Below, in pieces: positions 52,914 through 60,595 of a stretch of DNA of 64,000 bases; within the stretch, counting starts at the first letter, position 1; each line of letters starts with the position of its first letter. The notes beneath the pieces were generated by a model, which was not told the origin of the DNA, did not search any database, and worked only from the letters and a program-made list of their open reading frames with translations. Source of the DNA: an uncultured Alphaproteobacteria bacterium (GTDB lineage Bacteria; Pseudomonadota; Alphaproteobacteria; HIMB59). The position numbers and the translations under genes are program-made. Location of the stretch: contig CACNLH010000003.1 in the NCBI GenBank assembly GCA_902621205.1, positions 1-64,000 of the forward strand. Direction: 5' to 3'.

Positions 52914-53831
52914 TTATGAGAATAAATCACCCTCTGTAAATACTGCAGTATTCATGTCTTTAACAAATAATTTACCTTGGTCTGATTTAAATCTTGATAC
53001 CTCAATAAATCCACCTTTAACTGCTATTCTGACGTTTTCAGCATTAATTGATATGATTTGACCTGGAAAATGCTCAGCACTTTGCTCGTCAATAAACTTA
53101 GTGTCATAAAAGACATACTCATCACCCATGAATTCAGCCCATGCACCAGGCTGAGGATTGCAACCCCTTATTAAATTATAAATTTCGTTTCCGGGTTTTT
53201 TCCAATCAATTCTTGCATCACTTTTTTTACACCAAGACTCATATGTTGCTTTAGAGTCATCTTGAGGTGTCTTTGGTGCATTACCAGACTCAATTAAATT
53301 TGCAGCTTCAACACAAGCTTCAAGACCTAATGGAAATATCTTTTTAAAGTAAACATCTCCTAAAGTATCATCAGGACCAATATCAACTTCTTTTTGAAGT
53401 AATATTTCACCCTCATCTAGCCCATCATTTGGATAAAAAATTGAAAGACCTGTTTTTGTGGAGCCACCAATTATAGGCCAGTTTATTGAACTTGGTCCTC
53501 TATGGAGTGGAAGTAGTGAGGGGTGAAAACAAATAGATCCATGAGTAGGAATATCTCTCGCTCCTTCAGGCACAAAAATTATTACATAAGCCATGACACA
53601 TAAGTCCGCACCATGAGACTTAATTTGGTCTAGTACCTCTTGGTCTTTAAAATTTGAGGGTTGGTAAACAGGCAAACTAACACTTTGAGCGTATTCTTTA
53701 ACAGGATCGACTGGTTTACCCTCTTTGTCAGGTGCACAATATACCGCTACTACTTCATGGTCTGTTTCTGTATGAAATTTTTCTAAAGCACTTTTTCCAA
53801 ATGCTTGTTGCCCCATTAAAATTATTTTCAT
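52914..53831 (-). CDS. Formyl-folate hydrolase/formyltransferase-like protein (ALDH1L1 N-terminal domain type)
   Basis: A 305-residue stand-alone homologue of methionyl-tRNA formyltransferase and, more closely, of the 10-formyl-THF hydrolase domain of ALDH1L1. His103 sits in CFHPSLLPLHRGPSSINWPI and Asp139 in GLDEGEILLQKE, the catalytic pair of that family. The C-terminal half (SDARIDWKKPGNEIYNLIRG, PQPGAWAE) matches the OB-like domain. It is the last gene of the frc operon, so it probably moves the formyl group between formyl-CoA, folate and water. It is not expected to be the housekeeping Fmt. Exact reaction is inferred. Confidence 0.8.
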   Translation of the reverse strand: MKIILMGQQAFGKSALEKFHTETDHEVVAVYCAPDKEGKPVDPVKEYAQSVSLPVYQPSNFKDQEVLDQIKSHGADLCVMAYVIIFVPEGARDIPTHGSICFHPSLLPLHRGPSSINWPIIGGSTKTGLSIFYPNDGLDEGEILLQKEVDIGPDDTLGDVYFKKIFPLGLEACVEAANLIESGNAPKTPQDDSKATYESWCKKSDARIDWKKPGNEIYNLIRGCNPQPGAWAEFMGDEYVFYDTKFIDEQSAEHFPGQIISINAENVRIAVKGGFIEVSRFKSDQGKLFVKDMNTAVFTEGDLFS

Positions 53832-53857
53832 TATTGCTCCTTAAATTAAAATATATC

Positions 53858-55105
53858 TTATACTGCTCCGGCCTCTCTTACAGCTTTAATTTCATCGTCG
53901 CTCATCTGACAAAATTCTTTTAATATCTCATCAGTATGCTCTCCGAGAAGTGGAGATCTTTCAACTTTTGCTGGGGAGTCAGATAACTTAATTGGATTAC
54001 CAACAGTCAAATATTTCCCTCGTTCAGGGTGATCGACTTCGACTATAGTATTAGTGTCTCTCAGGCCTTGATCTTCAGCTAATTCTTTTAGAGATAATAT
54101 TGGACCAACTGGTATATCTAAAGGGTTACATATATCCATAACCTCAAATTTAGTCTTGGTCATTGTCCATGACTCAATTGTATCAAATATTTCGTTTAAC
54201 CTTGGTAGTCTTTTAGCAGGAGTTGAGTAATTTTCATCCTCTTTCCATTCGGGTTTACCAATAACATCACATACTTTTTCCCAAACAGCCGCCTGGGTAA
54301 TAAAATATGTATATGCATTAGGGTCCTTTTCCCAACCTTTACATTTTAGAATTCTTCCTGGCTGACCACCACCTGAGTCGTTACCTGCGCGAGGCGTAGA
54401 GTCACCAAAAGGAATGTCTTCTCCAAATTGAGAATATTCTTTTAAAGGCCCTCTTGAAAGTCTTTGTTGGTCACGAAGTTTAACTCTGCAAAGATTTAAA
54501 ACTCCATCTTGCATTGCGGCAGATACTCTTTGTCCCTTTCCTGACTTTTCTCTATGGAATAAAGCAGTAACTATACCCAATGCTAAGTGTAGTCCTGTTC
54601 CACTATCTCCTATTTGTGCACCGGTGACTAAAGGAACTTCTCCAAGCATACCTGTAGTTGAAGCAGATCCACCTGCGCACTGAGCAACATTCTCATAAAC
54701 TTTACAATCTTCATATTTGCCAGGACCAAAACCTTTAACAGACGCATAAATCATTCTTGGATTTATTTCTTGGATTTTTTTCCATGAAAAGCCCATTCTA
54801 TCTAAAGCACCAGGAGCAAAATTTTCTACCATAACATCACACTCTTGGATTAACTTAGTAAATATTTTTGAACCCTCTGGTTTCTTTGGGTTTAATGTTA
54901 TGCTTCTTTTATTTGAGTTTAGCATTGTAAAGTACAAACTGTCTGCATCAGGAACGTCTCTTAGCTGACCTCTTGTAGCATCACCCACTCCTGGTCTTTC
55001 AACTTTTACGACATCTGCACCAAACCAAGCTAGTAATTGTGTGCAAGTTGGTCCGGACTGGACGTGTGTCATGTCTAATATTTTGACACCTTTTAAAGCT
55101 TCCAT
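53858..55105 (-). CDS. frc: Formyl-CoA transferase (class III CoA-transferase)
   Basis: A 415-residue CaiB/BaiF-type transferase matching Oxalobacter Frc over its whole length: [58 protein letters not shown] and [13 protein letters not shown] [14 protein letters not shown]. Catalytic Asp167 is in [11 protein letters not shown]. The glycine loop GGGQPG is at 245-250. Frc transfers CoA from formyl-CoA to oxalate; other acids are used by relatives. An imported acid would be activated here at the cost of formyl-CoA. A GGAGGA site precedes the start, and the lyase gene is 16 bases upstream. Confidence 0.9.
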
Positions 55106-55121
55106 AGTTTCCTCCTAAAGT

Positions 55122-59045: not shown

Positions 59046-59073
59046 CTTTTATGTCTTTACTTTACCAATCTCA

Positions 59074-59598
59074 TTAAGAATACATAAAATCGTATACTGG
59101 ATAAAATAAGGGCTCTGAAATACCCTGGGGTAAAGGTATTTTTAAAAGCCATTCAAAAAATAAAAAGGTTAAAACTGGTGTGATTAAAGAGAATACAGAT
59201 ATAAATAGGACACTTTTAGAACTAAAATATCTAAGATAAAAAGCTAAAAAAAAGATAAGTGAAAAGTAAATTCCCAAATAGCCTATTGCTAAAACTAAAA
59301 TAACTAATGAAATAATTGTTACTGCAATATATTTGAATGCTTCAGCCTCAATAAAAGGAGAGTCATCTTTAGATTGTGGTGACCTTTTTAGAACGAATTT
59401 AATTATGGTAAGGACAGTGCAAATAAGCATGCCAAGAGAAAGGTAAAAAGGAAGGAATCCCGCACCCATGTTTTCTTCTGCGTTCCATGTAATTCTATTC
59501 TCAGCACTTTTAATCATCAGAGCGATTGAGCATAACGCTAAAATAACGGCCACCGCAATTTCTGCTTTTTTGACAGTTATTTTGTTTGTTACGCTCAT
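59074..59598 (-). CDS. tctB: Tripartite tricarboxylate transporter, small membrane subunit TctB
   Basis: A 174-residue protein with four helices (about 12-30, 48-65, 92-110, 118-150), AGFLPFYLSLGMLICTVLTI after the first helix, and the weak conservation usual for TctB. Its place between tctC and tctA secures the call. Confidence 0.86.
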   Translation of the reverse strand: MSVTNKITVKKAEIAVAVILALCSIALMIKSAENRITWNAEENMGAGFLPFYLSLGMLICTVLTIIKFVLKRSPQSKDDSPFIEAEAFKYIAVTIISLVILVLAIGYLGIYFSLIFFLAFYLRYFSSKSVLFISVFSLITPVLTFLFFEWLLKIPLPQGISEPLFYPVYDFMYS

Positions 59599-59617
59599 AT
59601 CACTCTTAATTTAAATA

Positions 59618-60595
59618 TTAGTCAAAGTTTTTAATGATCTCACCGTGCTTAGCATATTCGATTGCTAAGAAATCTTTAAGACCAAAACCCTCTAACCAGC
59701 TCATTAACTTTCCATCGTCGATGTTGAAAGTTTGGAACTCGTCATCATGATAAACAGTGTGAAGAAGTCCTGTGTAGTACTTCTCTACCTCTGCATCAAC
59801 ACCAGCTGGAGCCATGAATGCTCTCATCATATAGTATTCAAGATCAGGATAACCTAATTCATATGAAGATGGTACTTCTGGGAATGCAGGATTTCTCTCA
59901 GGAGTCATCATAACTAATGCTTTTGAATCACCTGATTGATAGAATCCCATCTGCTCAGAAGGGTTGTTTAATGTAAAATCTGACTCGCCGCCAACTAGAC
60001 CCTTTGCAACAGCACCACCACCGTCATATGGTACGTACTTTGCATCAAATCCAAACTGACCTCTCATCATACCAAGAAGTAATTCGTCCTCAGACATACT
60101 TCCTGTACCACCCATTACTAGACCATTACCTTTAGCAAGTGCGATGAAGTCATCAAATGTTTCTACACCTTGAGTATTTTTACCTTCAGTTGCAATCCAT
60201 ACTAAGAATGTATCTGTAATAAGTCTTGCTAATGGTGTGAAGTCATTAAAGAAGTCAATTCCTAACTCAGGCTGGTTAACAGGTGTAGTTAGAACGTTGT
60301 TAAGAGTAATGATAAGTGTGTGCTCATCACCAGCTTTTTTCTTAACATAAGTCATAGCTTCACCACCAGAACCACCTTTTTTATTAATCGGAATCACTGG
60401 CTTAGATGCGTAGTCGTTTTTCTCGATAACACCTTGAACTAATCTAGCAATTTCGTCAGCTCCACCACCTTGACCAGCTGGGATAATAAGTTCAATAGGC
60501 TTCTTTGGACTAAAAGGCTTCGCAGAAGACACTGAACTAACAGCGACAAGTGAAAGTGAAACAATAACTAATGCTAATTTTTTGATTATTGACAT
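59618..60595 (-). CDS. tctC: Tripartite tricarboxylate transporter, periplasmic binding protein TctC
   Basis: A 325-residue binding protein. A signal peptide (about 1-25, ending VSSAKPFSPKKPIELIIPAG) leads to the mature Bug/TctC fold with AGQGGGADEIARLVQ, PINKKGGSGGEAMTYV and VPYDGGGAVAKGLVGGESDFTLNN. Bug proteins hold carboxylates. The sequence does not identify the ligand; a 2-hydroxy acid or oxalate would fit the operon. First gene of the operon, with the operator about 150 bases upstream. Confidence 0.9.
   Translation of the reverse strand: MSIIKKLALVIVSLSLVAVSSVSSAKPFSPKKPIELIIPAGQGGGADEIARLVQGVIEKNDYASKPVIPINKKGGSGGEAMTYVKKKAGDEHTLIITLNNVLTTPVNQPELGIDFFNDFTPLARLITDTFLVWIATEGKNTQGVETFDDFIALAKGNGLVMGGTGSMSEDELLLGMMRGQFGFDAKYVPYDGGGAVAKGLVGGESDFTLNNPSEQMGFYQSGDSKALVMMTPERNPAFPEVPSSYELGYPDLEYYMMRAFMAPAGVDAEVEKYYTGLLHTVYHDDEFQTFNIDDGKLMSWLEGFGLKDFLAIEYAKHGEIIKNFD

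Follow-up and report, generated by a model that had tools for sequence, protein, structure and literature searches.

Organization of the locus

We analyzed a 64,000-nucleotide stretch of DNA (hereafter the window) from an uncultured Alphaproteobacteria bacterium of the HIMB59 lineage, which carries a seven-gene operon predicted to encode the import and catabolism of oxalate. The genome carrying the window comprises ~1.3 Mb in 23 contigs and is 86% complete. The operon consists of seven open reading frames (ORFs) on the minus strand, spans positions 52914-60595 and has intergenic gaps of 0-63 bp. From 60595 down to 52914, the gene order is tctC, tctB, tctA, gntR, the gene of a thiamine diphosphate (ThDP)-dependent enzyme, frc and the gene of a formyltransferase, FT (Table 1). 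A Shine-Dalgarno-like AGGAGG lies at 60608-60603, ahead of the ATG of tctC, the first gene of the operon. An earlier interpretation made from the nucleotide sequence, the sequence-only reading, had placed TctCBA, a GntR regulator, a ThDP lyase, Frc and a formyltransferase here, and all of these families were present at the positions it gave.

Table 1. Coordinates and family assignments of the operon and its upstream region.
Feature	Positions	Strand	Match or context
FT: stand-alone formyltransferase of the ALDH1L1-hydrolase-domain type, 305 aa; proposed 10-formyl-tetrahydrofolate:CoA formyltransferase	52914..53831	-	Pfam Formyl_trans_N/C
Frc: formyl-CoA:oxalate CoA-transferase, 415 aa, CoA_transf_3	53858..55105	-	TIGR03253
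ThDP enzyme, 558 aa, ILVBL/HACL2-like; proposed non-orthologous oxalyl-CoA decarboxylase	55122..56798	-	TPP_enzyme N/M/C (three domains)
GntR/FCD regulator, 219 aa; probable ligand-responsive operon regulator	56862..57521	-	PF00392, PF07729
TctA: large membrane subunit of a tripartite carboxylate importer	57522..59045	-	PF01970, 4.5e-144
TctB: small membrane subunit	59074..59598	-	PF07331
TctC: periplasmic binding protein; proposed oxalate receptor	59618..60595	-	PF03401
Divergent intergenic region, presumed promoter/operator	60596..60746		Gap before tctC; next listed ORF from 60747, plus strand

Recurrence of the operon among bacteria

We searched 385 genomes of the class for FT, which was called at E-values of 3.4e-87 or better, the next match being at 8.6e-42. 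FT was found in 34 of these genomes, Frc above its family cut-off in 35, and both in 28. Accordingly, Frc occurred in 28 of the 34 FT genomes versus 7 of the 351 others (Fisher p 3e-30, uncorrected for kinship), a co-occurrence that ties FT to formyl-CoA chemistry, as had been suggested. Formate-tetrahydrofolate (THF) ligase, Fhs, was encoded in 31 of the 34 FT genomes as compared to 174 of the 385 overall.

Besides the window, the class sample provided 33 FT loci, one of them cut at a contig end; Frc adjoins FT in 17. Named genomes yielded at least 584 relatives, the nearest of which bear AG- isolate names and are recorded as Pelagibacteraceae or as uncultured Alphaproteobacteria, presumably single-cell genomes from the surface ocean. 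We scanned the loci of the best 80, so that these counts describe the loci nearest to the window; gene labels in the scans are best matches to a single query, with chosen bit thresholds. Frc was present in 64 of the 80 loci, GntR in 51, TctA in 44 and Fhs in 41, while FT itself was labelled in 78 (the exceptions being L121 and L122). Among the 16 loci that had no Frc in the stretch examined, 14 genomes were searched and 11 have Frc over the cut-off elsewhere. Because Frc adjoins FT in 17/33 loci of the class sample and 64/80 of those from named genomes, the gene set is not a product of chance. The seven-gene operon is real and widely recurrent among bacteria.

FT often sits between Frc and Fhs. 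The L112 operon, for example, comprises TctCBA, GntR, the lyase, Frc, FT, Fhs, a universal stress protein and a formate-dehydrogenase-like gene. Judged by their gene content, some operons, such as that of L112, look complete for turning oxalate into CO2 and formyl-THF. Members of the window's genus encode Fhs and formate dehydrogenase away from the operon (4/4 genomes).

Frc belongs to the formyl-CoA:oxalate CoA-transferase family

The window Frc scored 691.9 bits against TIGR03253 (oxalate_frc), above the curated equivalog cut-off of 504.2, and matched E. coli YfdW (1pqy) with an E-value of 1.5e-160, in keeping with its earlier description as very like formyl-CoA transferase. Its glycine-rich loop, SGGGQPG, aligns with GGGGQPG of YfdW and is not the GNxH loop of acetyl-CoA:oxalate enzymes; this loop distinguishes the formyl-CoA type from the latter (PMC3720670; here and below, PMC numbers refer to excerpts of the papers). 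Frc is thus by sequence a full member of the formyl-CoA:oxalate CoA-transferase family, and formyl-CoA/oxalate activity is predicted.

The operon resembles the Frc/Oxc systems of oxalate catabolism in Oxalobacter formigenes and E. coli (yfdXWUVE) in having an Frc above the cut-off, an adjoining ThDP enzyme and formyl-CoA as the expected donor. It differs from them in having a ThDP enzyme from outside the Oxc family, as well as a Tct importer and FT in the operon, to which relatives of the window add Fhs and formate dehydrogenase. In contrast to the E. coli system, moreover, no YfdE-type second CoA-transferase was found in the window's genus: a search for class III CoA-transferases, other enzyme classes not being searched, detected no second one in G000 or three congeners, one of which is 99% complete.

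The ThDP enzyme alternates with canonical Oxc

The ThDP enzyme matched 51 NCBIfam families and fell short of the cut-off in all 25 of those shown. The best model among those shown was PRK05858, 'acetolactate synthase' (486 versus a cut-off of 587); the scores against the 2-hydroxyacyl-CoA lyase model NF058623 (351.1 bits, cut-off 600) and the oxalyl-CoA decarboxylase model PRK09259 (258.2, cut-off 557) were also too low. Because the protein falls below all family cut-offs shown, the label 'ILVBL/HACL2-like' is fair. For brevity, we refer to this enzyme as the lyase. Its AlphaFold2 model (mean predicted local distance difference test score, pLDDT, 81.6) matched HACL and OXC structures about equally and is therefore non-discriminating.

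To the extent that close relatives of the lyase occur in the class (16/385 genomes, E up to 1e-150), they are found with Frc. The two genes are neighbours in 16/16 genomes, within ~180 bp in 15 and 5.1 kb apart in G228; the Frc of G071 is cut by the contig end. A search of 41 genomes, among them every genome with Frc (35) or the lyase (16), found canonical Oxc over the cut-off in 18, never together with the lyase. Among 36 genomes, this mutual exclusion has a Fisher p of 4e-8 with the genomes treated as independent. Neither enzyme occurs in the Frc genomes G239 and G312.

The same pattern was observed in a set of 116 loci, made up of 36 (two of them Fmt-like controls) and the 80 nearest loci from named genomes. 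The bit threshold for the lyase and Oxc labels was 450 in the 80 loci and 700 in the 116. At >700 bits, the ThDP slot of the 116 loci held a window-type lyase in 41, canonical Oxc in 30 and both in 0. Near-copies of the window are counted in the 80 and the 116; they account for 12 of the 41 lyase loci, leaving 29 outside the close relatives. The exchanged proteins are dissimilar: the window lyase shares just 24-28% identity with the Oxc proteins compared, three sampled examples of which scored 937 to 1032 bits against oxalate_oxc.

We then compared the remaining operon proteins between the two types of operon. Trees were built by quick searches with support from the Shimodaira-Hasegawa-like approximate likelihood ratio test (SH-aLRT) only; most near-copies of the window were left out of the trees and of the FT alignment, and L048, which has a long branch in the Frc tree, was left out of the column and partner-change analysis. 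The Frc tree, built from 70 proteins (30 with a lyase partner, 30 with Oxc and 10 with an unknown partner), required at least 8 partner changes as built, and its starred branches alone force 6 changes of the Oxc label. In this tree, the window clade (lyase) joins L097, L095 and L098 (Oxc) and L089 (lyase) with 97% SH-aLRT support, and L127 (lyase) is paired with L122 (Oxc) with 99%. The other trees gave 9 partner changes for TctC, 7 for TctA, 9 for GntR and 9 for Fhs.

No column marking the type of operon (a different letter in each type, conserved at ≥90% in both) was found in the alignments of Frc, FT, TctC, TctA, GntR or Fhs, in which the lyase-type rows are more varied than the Oxc-type rows. 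Many columns that are ≥95% conserved in the Oxc type are equally conserved, with the same letter, in the lyase type: 179/237 in Frc, 58/72 in FT, 56/74 in TctC, 200/219 in TctA, 34/59 in GntR and 147/272 in Fhs. In both types of operon, Frc exceeds the oxalate equivalog cut-off. The window Frc shares 73-78% identity with the full-length Frc proteins compared from Oxc-type operons and 56-75% with lyase-type Frc from outside the window's genus.

Since the two ThDP enzymes have replaced each other repeatedly while the rest of the operon carries no mark of type, the simplest reading is that they do the same job and that the acid is oxalate. The ThDP enzyme is therefore most likely a second, unrecognised oxalyl-CoA decarboxylase, as suggested by its exchange with Oxc in the operon, and oxalate is most likely the operon's substrate, as indicated by this interchange and the family of Frc.

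Two further arrangements were seen. L149 (2878-7423) and L150 (8176-12746) contain TctCBA, the lyase and FT; the L149 set is followed downstream by AceK (isocitrate dehydrogenase kinase/phosphatase) and the L150 set by a similar-looking ORF. In some FT genomes, a second type of pair occurs in which an Frc-like protein (365-369 bits) stands beside an Oxc-like protein (531-540 bits), both below the cut-off (G359:C10:38176-41063, G187:C165 and G281:C47).

FT is a relative of the ALDH1L1 hydrolase domain

The nearest sequence to FT in the PDB is 4qpd, the ALDH1L1 hydrolase domain (1.1e-62, versus 5.6e-38 for Fmt). According to Foldseek, the AlphaFold2 model (pLDDT 93.7) is also closest to 4qpd (1.4e-36), followed by Fmt (1.3e-31) and HypX (1.2e-19), whereas the template modelling (TM) score favours Fmt (0.91 vs 0.85 for 4qpd). 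FT and ALDH1L1 split from three Fmt-like proteins with 100% SH-aLRT support in a tree with long branches. FT has full-length homology to the ALDH1L1 domain and shares its HxSLLP motif with the H/S/D triad and the equivalent of Tyr200; the H-R-G of YHPSLLPxHRG in ALDH1L1 is mostly kept. It differs from ALDH1L1 in standing alone: its only domains are Formyl_trans_N and Formyl_trans_C, with no linked acyl carrier protein (ACP) or aldehyde dehydrogenase domain.

His103 and Asp139, whose retention had been pointed out in the sequence-only reading, are invariant in 101/101 FT sequences, as are Ser105 and Tyr197. Arg111 is Arg in 94/101 and Lys in 7/101. Position 101, two residues before the catalytic His (window 53529-53531, minus strand), is Gln in 57 sequences and Cys in 44, including that of the window, and the two states are separated by a single change on the FT tree. 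The corresponding residue is Ile104 in ALDH1L1, whereas Fmt, ArnA and GART have Asn; replacing the Ile of the vertebrate hydrolase with Asn leaves <10% of the hydrolase activity (PMC4388273). Cys101 of the window FT is close to the formyl site and could take part in catalysis.

Met-tRNA formylation was rejected as the function of FT. The protein scored 157.3 bits against the methionyl-tRNA formyltransferase model TIGR00460, below the cut-off of 201.5; it has no Asn before the catalytic His; and the same genome has a separate Fmt-like gene, another formyltransferase gene there reading NIHASLLPRWRG. At the family level, the sequence-only reading's own counter-proposal, that FT acts only on Met-tRNA, thus does not apply. 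On sequence grounds, FT groups with the ALDH1L1 hydrolase domain as a free-standing protein and is not an Fmt.

Two precedents bear on the reaction. In ALDH1L1, the hydrolase domain hands the formyl group on to the phosphopantetheine carried by the ACP domain (PMC6802093), and the N-terminal domain of HypX is reported to use 10-formyl-THF to formylate CoA (PMC12134894). HypX is like FT in fold family and in the proposed reaction, formyl-CoA being formed from 10-formyl-THF in hydrogenase maturation; it differs in being a two-domain protein that decarbonylates the formyl-CoA that it makes, and it is distant from FT (17% identity in the Foldseek match). Homology and genome context together make formyl transfer between 10-formyl-THF and CoA the best-supported role for FT. 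Searches of an open-access library yielded neither a formyl-CoA/THF formyltransferase in oxalate metabolism nor this operon; the nearest work concerns HypX.

A proposed route and its alternatives

We propose, with a probability of roughly 0.6, that the operon encodes oxalate import and catabolism with a swapped decarboxylase and an enzyme of CoA-folate formyl exchange. TctCBA would import oxalate, Frc would convert formyl-CoA and oxalate to formate and oxalyl-CoA, and the ThDP enzyme, in place of canonical Oxc, would convert oxalyl-CoA to formyl-CoA and CO2. Formate would go to formate dehydrogenase or to Fhs; in many relatives Fhs, and in some also formate dehydrogenase, is inside the operon. 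Fhs would form 10-formyl-THF from formate, ATP and THF, and FT would reversibly transfer formyl between 10-formyl-THF and CoA, at the phosphopantetheine thiol of the latter. By making formyl-CoA, FT and Fhs would start the Frc cycle and refill it after hydrolysis or side use of oxalyl-CoA, although FT may still serve as a two-way valve. More tentatively, at somewhat less than even odds, the operon would hold two things hitherto undescribed: a stand-alone 10-formyl-THF:CoA formyltransferase, which with Fhs would be an ATP-driven formyl-CoA synthase module priming oxalate catabolism, and a second family of oxalyl-CoA decarboxylases.

Formyl-CoA is catalytic in this cycle, which cannot start without it. 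The thioester is unstable, with a half-life of 1.9 h in quenched mixtures, and the primer proposed in E. coli is YfdE, acting from acetyl-CoA, the formyl-CoA-type enzymes having no acetyl-CoA activity according to the same excerpts (PMC3720670). The lack of a second class III CoA-transferase in the search of G000 and its three congeners suggests that the window's genus would need another primer. It is only stoichiometry that favours the making, or priming, of formyl-CoA as the direction of FT: flux from formyl-CoA to folate would consume the CoA donor of Frc. The sequence-only reading had formyl moving between CoA and folate, which holds in outline, but toward folate, opposite to the direction favoured here. 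The saving of ATP over formate-THF ligase that it envisaged is not expected, because the thioester is required to activate the next oxalate and any formyl-CoA passed to THF would have to be regenerated at the expense of energy. As for the acids that it listed, oxalate is the best candidate, and glycolate, lactate or another 2-hydroxy acid fit poorly with the repeated exchange of the lyase and Oxc.

Several observations weigh against this proposal. Six of the 34 FT genomes lack an Frc that passes the cut-off (G071, in which Frc is cut by a contig end, G281, G288, G300, G359 and G366), seven Frc genomes have no FT (G007, G060, G224, G239, G277, G283 and G361), and in many genomes FT is apart from Frc. 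In L149 and L150, the lyase and FT have no adjoining Frc, which is elsewhere in each genome, and the lyase genome G187 also holds an Oxc-like protein (533.9 bits, below the cut-off). The ThDP enzyme is far below the cut-off of the oxalyl-CoA decarboxylase model TIGR03254 (247.5 bits versus 739.4), its nearest solved relatives are 2-hydroxyacyl-CoA lyases (AcHACL, 7pt3, 6.8e-78), and the residue pattern of Oxc is absent from it in an alignment at ~25% identity. A separate primer may be unnecessary where Frc is promiscuous, as in O. formigenes (PMC3720670). Finally, the adjacency of FT and Fhs fits flux from formyl-CoA to THF equally.

That direction is the first of three alternatives. The same oxalate operon could have FT running from formyl-CoA to THF, bleeding formyl into the folate pool for one-carbon (C1) assimilation. 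Fhs, also a maker of 10-formyl-THF, lies within 300 bp downstream of FT in 50 of 102 FT loci, a few copies from the window's genus included; G306 (94% complete) has the lyase, Frc and FT but no Fhs; and the operon on a plasmid of La6 is near serine-cycle-like genes. Each formyl group given away, however, would leave one oxalate without a CoA donor, and as the main flux this direction requires another route of activation, no further class III CoA-transferase having been found in the window's genus. We consider it unlikely.

A more improbable alternative is that the lyase-type operons use another acid, the lyase cleaving a 2-hydroxyacyl-CoA to formyl-CoA and an aldehyde or acting as a carboligase. 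The lyase is nearest to 2-hydroxyacyl-CoA lyases by sequence and fold, AcHACL being the closest solved sequence and the LQD motif with Q128 being kept, and it does not retain the catalytic residues of Oxc. The Tyr-Glu pair of Oxc is Leu-Gln in the lyase, Tyr483 (O. formigenes numbering) aligns with Ile475, and Ser553 (same numbering) aligns with a variable position near the C-terminus; the catalytic roles of these Oxc residues have been described (PMC8411744, PMC8760513). The acid/base Glu493 of AcHACL is replaced by Ile475, invariant in 30 sequences of the lyase family. This loss at first looked decisive against lyase chemistry, an argument that we dropped given that human HACL2, a lyase, has Ile554 at this place (PMC13327070). 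Ile475 is compatible with lyase activity and, since HACL2 also has Ile there, is no evidence either way; on the aligned active-site residues alone, the enzyme could still be a 2-hydroxyacyl-CoA lyase. The window enzyme differs from AcHACL in that its C-terminus, which bears a lid in AcHACL, is shorter and has an invariant tail (A548-P-G-T..Q-T-M-Y-K), and in that the window-type enzyme adjoins Frc in most loci (not in L149 and L150). Against another acid stand the lack of a type-marking residue in Frc, TctC, TctA, GntR, FT and Fhs, the passage of Frc over the oxalate equivalog cut-off in both types of operon, and the repeated changes of substrate that the repeated swaps would demand.

Equally hard to credit is a role for FT as a 10-formyl-THF (or formyl-CoA) hydrolase that releases formate and balances the pools: its closest solved relative is named a hydrolase domain and has the same H/S/D triad and Tyr200 equivalent (PMC4388273), but a hydrolase beside Fhs would create a futile cycle, and position 101 is Gln or Cys in 101/101 sequences and not the vertebrate Ile, the change measured there being to Asn (PMC4388273).

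Neighbouring genes and related loci

A cluster encoding an Mrp-type Na+/H+ antiporter (MnhE, MnhG, MnhB and MnhD-like) occupies 48995-52904 on the same, minus strand and begins 9 bp past the stop codon of FT. Mrp genes are near FT in 14 of the 116 loci, all of which belong to close relatives of the window.

Just beyond the window (G000:C3 ~63.8-66.0 kb, minus strand; L154:3322-5460) lie genes for a reductase of the ApbA/PanE family and for a class V aminotransferase. The aminotransferase is near BhcA at 573 bits, below the cut-off of 650. The reduction of oxalyl-CoA in methylotrophs is carried out by a PanE-like enzyme. Its product in these organisms is glyoxylate (PMC3720670). The reductase and aminotransferase might thus form a branch of assimilation from oxalyl-CoA through glyoxylate to glycine, a possible lead only. 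If the reductase makes glyoxylate, one formyl-CoA would be spent per glyoxylate, which would be a further reason for an enzyme that refills the pool.

An Oxc-type operon with Fhs (L034) is carried by the 180-kb plasmid pLA6_002 of Paracoccaceae bacterium La 6. It is near genes annotated as serine hydroxymethyltransferase (SHMT), glycerate dehydrogenase, FolD, phosphoenolpyruvate (PEP) carboxylase and formate dehydrogenase and near a class V aminotransferase gene, which together resemble a serine-cycle set; the La6 gene labelled APBA has no Pfam ApbA match. The label MTKA/MTKB (malate-CoA ligase) was rejected for two subunits encoded in the window, which pass the succinate-CoA ligase cut-offs instead. 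The same applies to the beta subunit of La6, which is above the succinate-CoA ligase cut-off; the beta subunits of the window and La6 are both below that of malate-CoA ligase.

Implications

If the proposal is correct, the use of oxalate in bacteria would be wider than searches for oxc show, extending to presumed streamlined Alphaproteobacteria of the surface ocean. Such searches would undercount oxalate users because the decarboxylase goes by other names: by sequence, the curated models nearest to the putative second family are named acetolactate synthase or 2-hydroxyacyl-CoA lyase. FT would be a natural enzyme joining the CoA and folate C1 pools. It would bear on how the Frc cycle is started without an acetyl-CoA:oxalate CoA-transferase, and would be relevant to synthetic C1 routes that require formyl-CoA.

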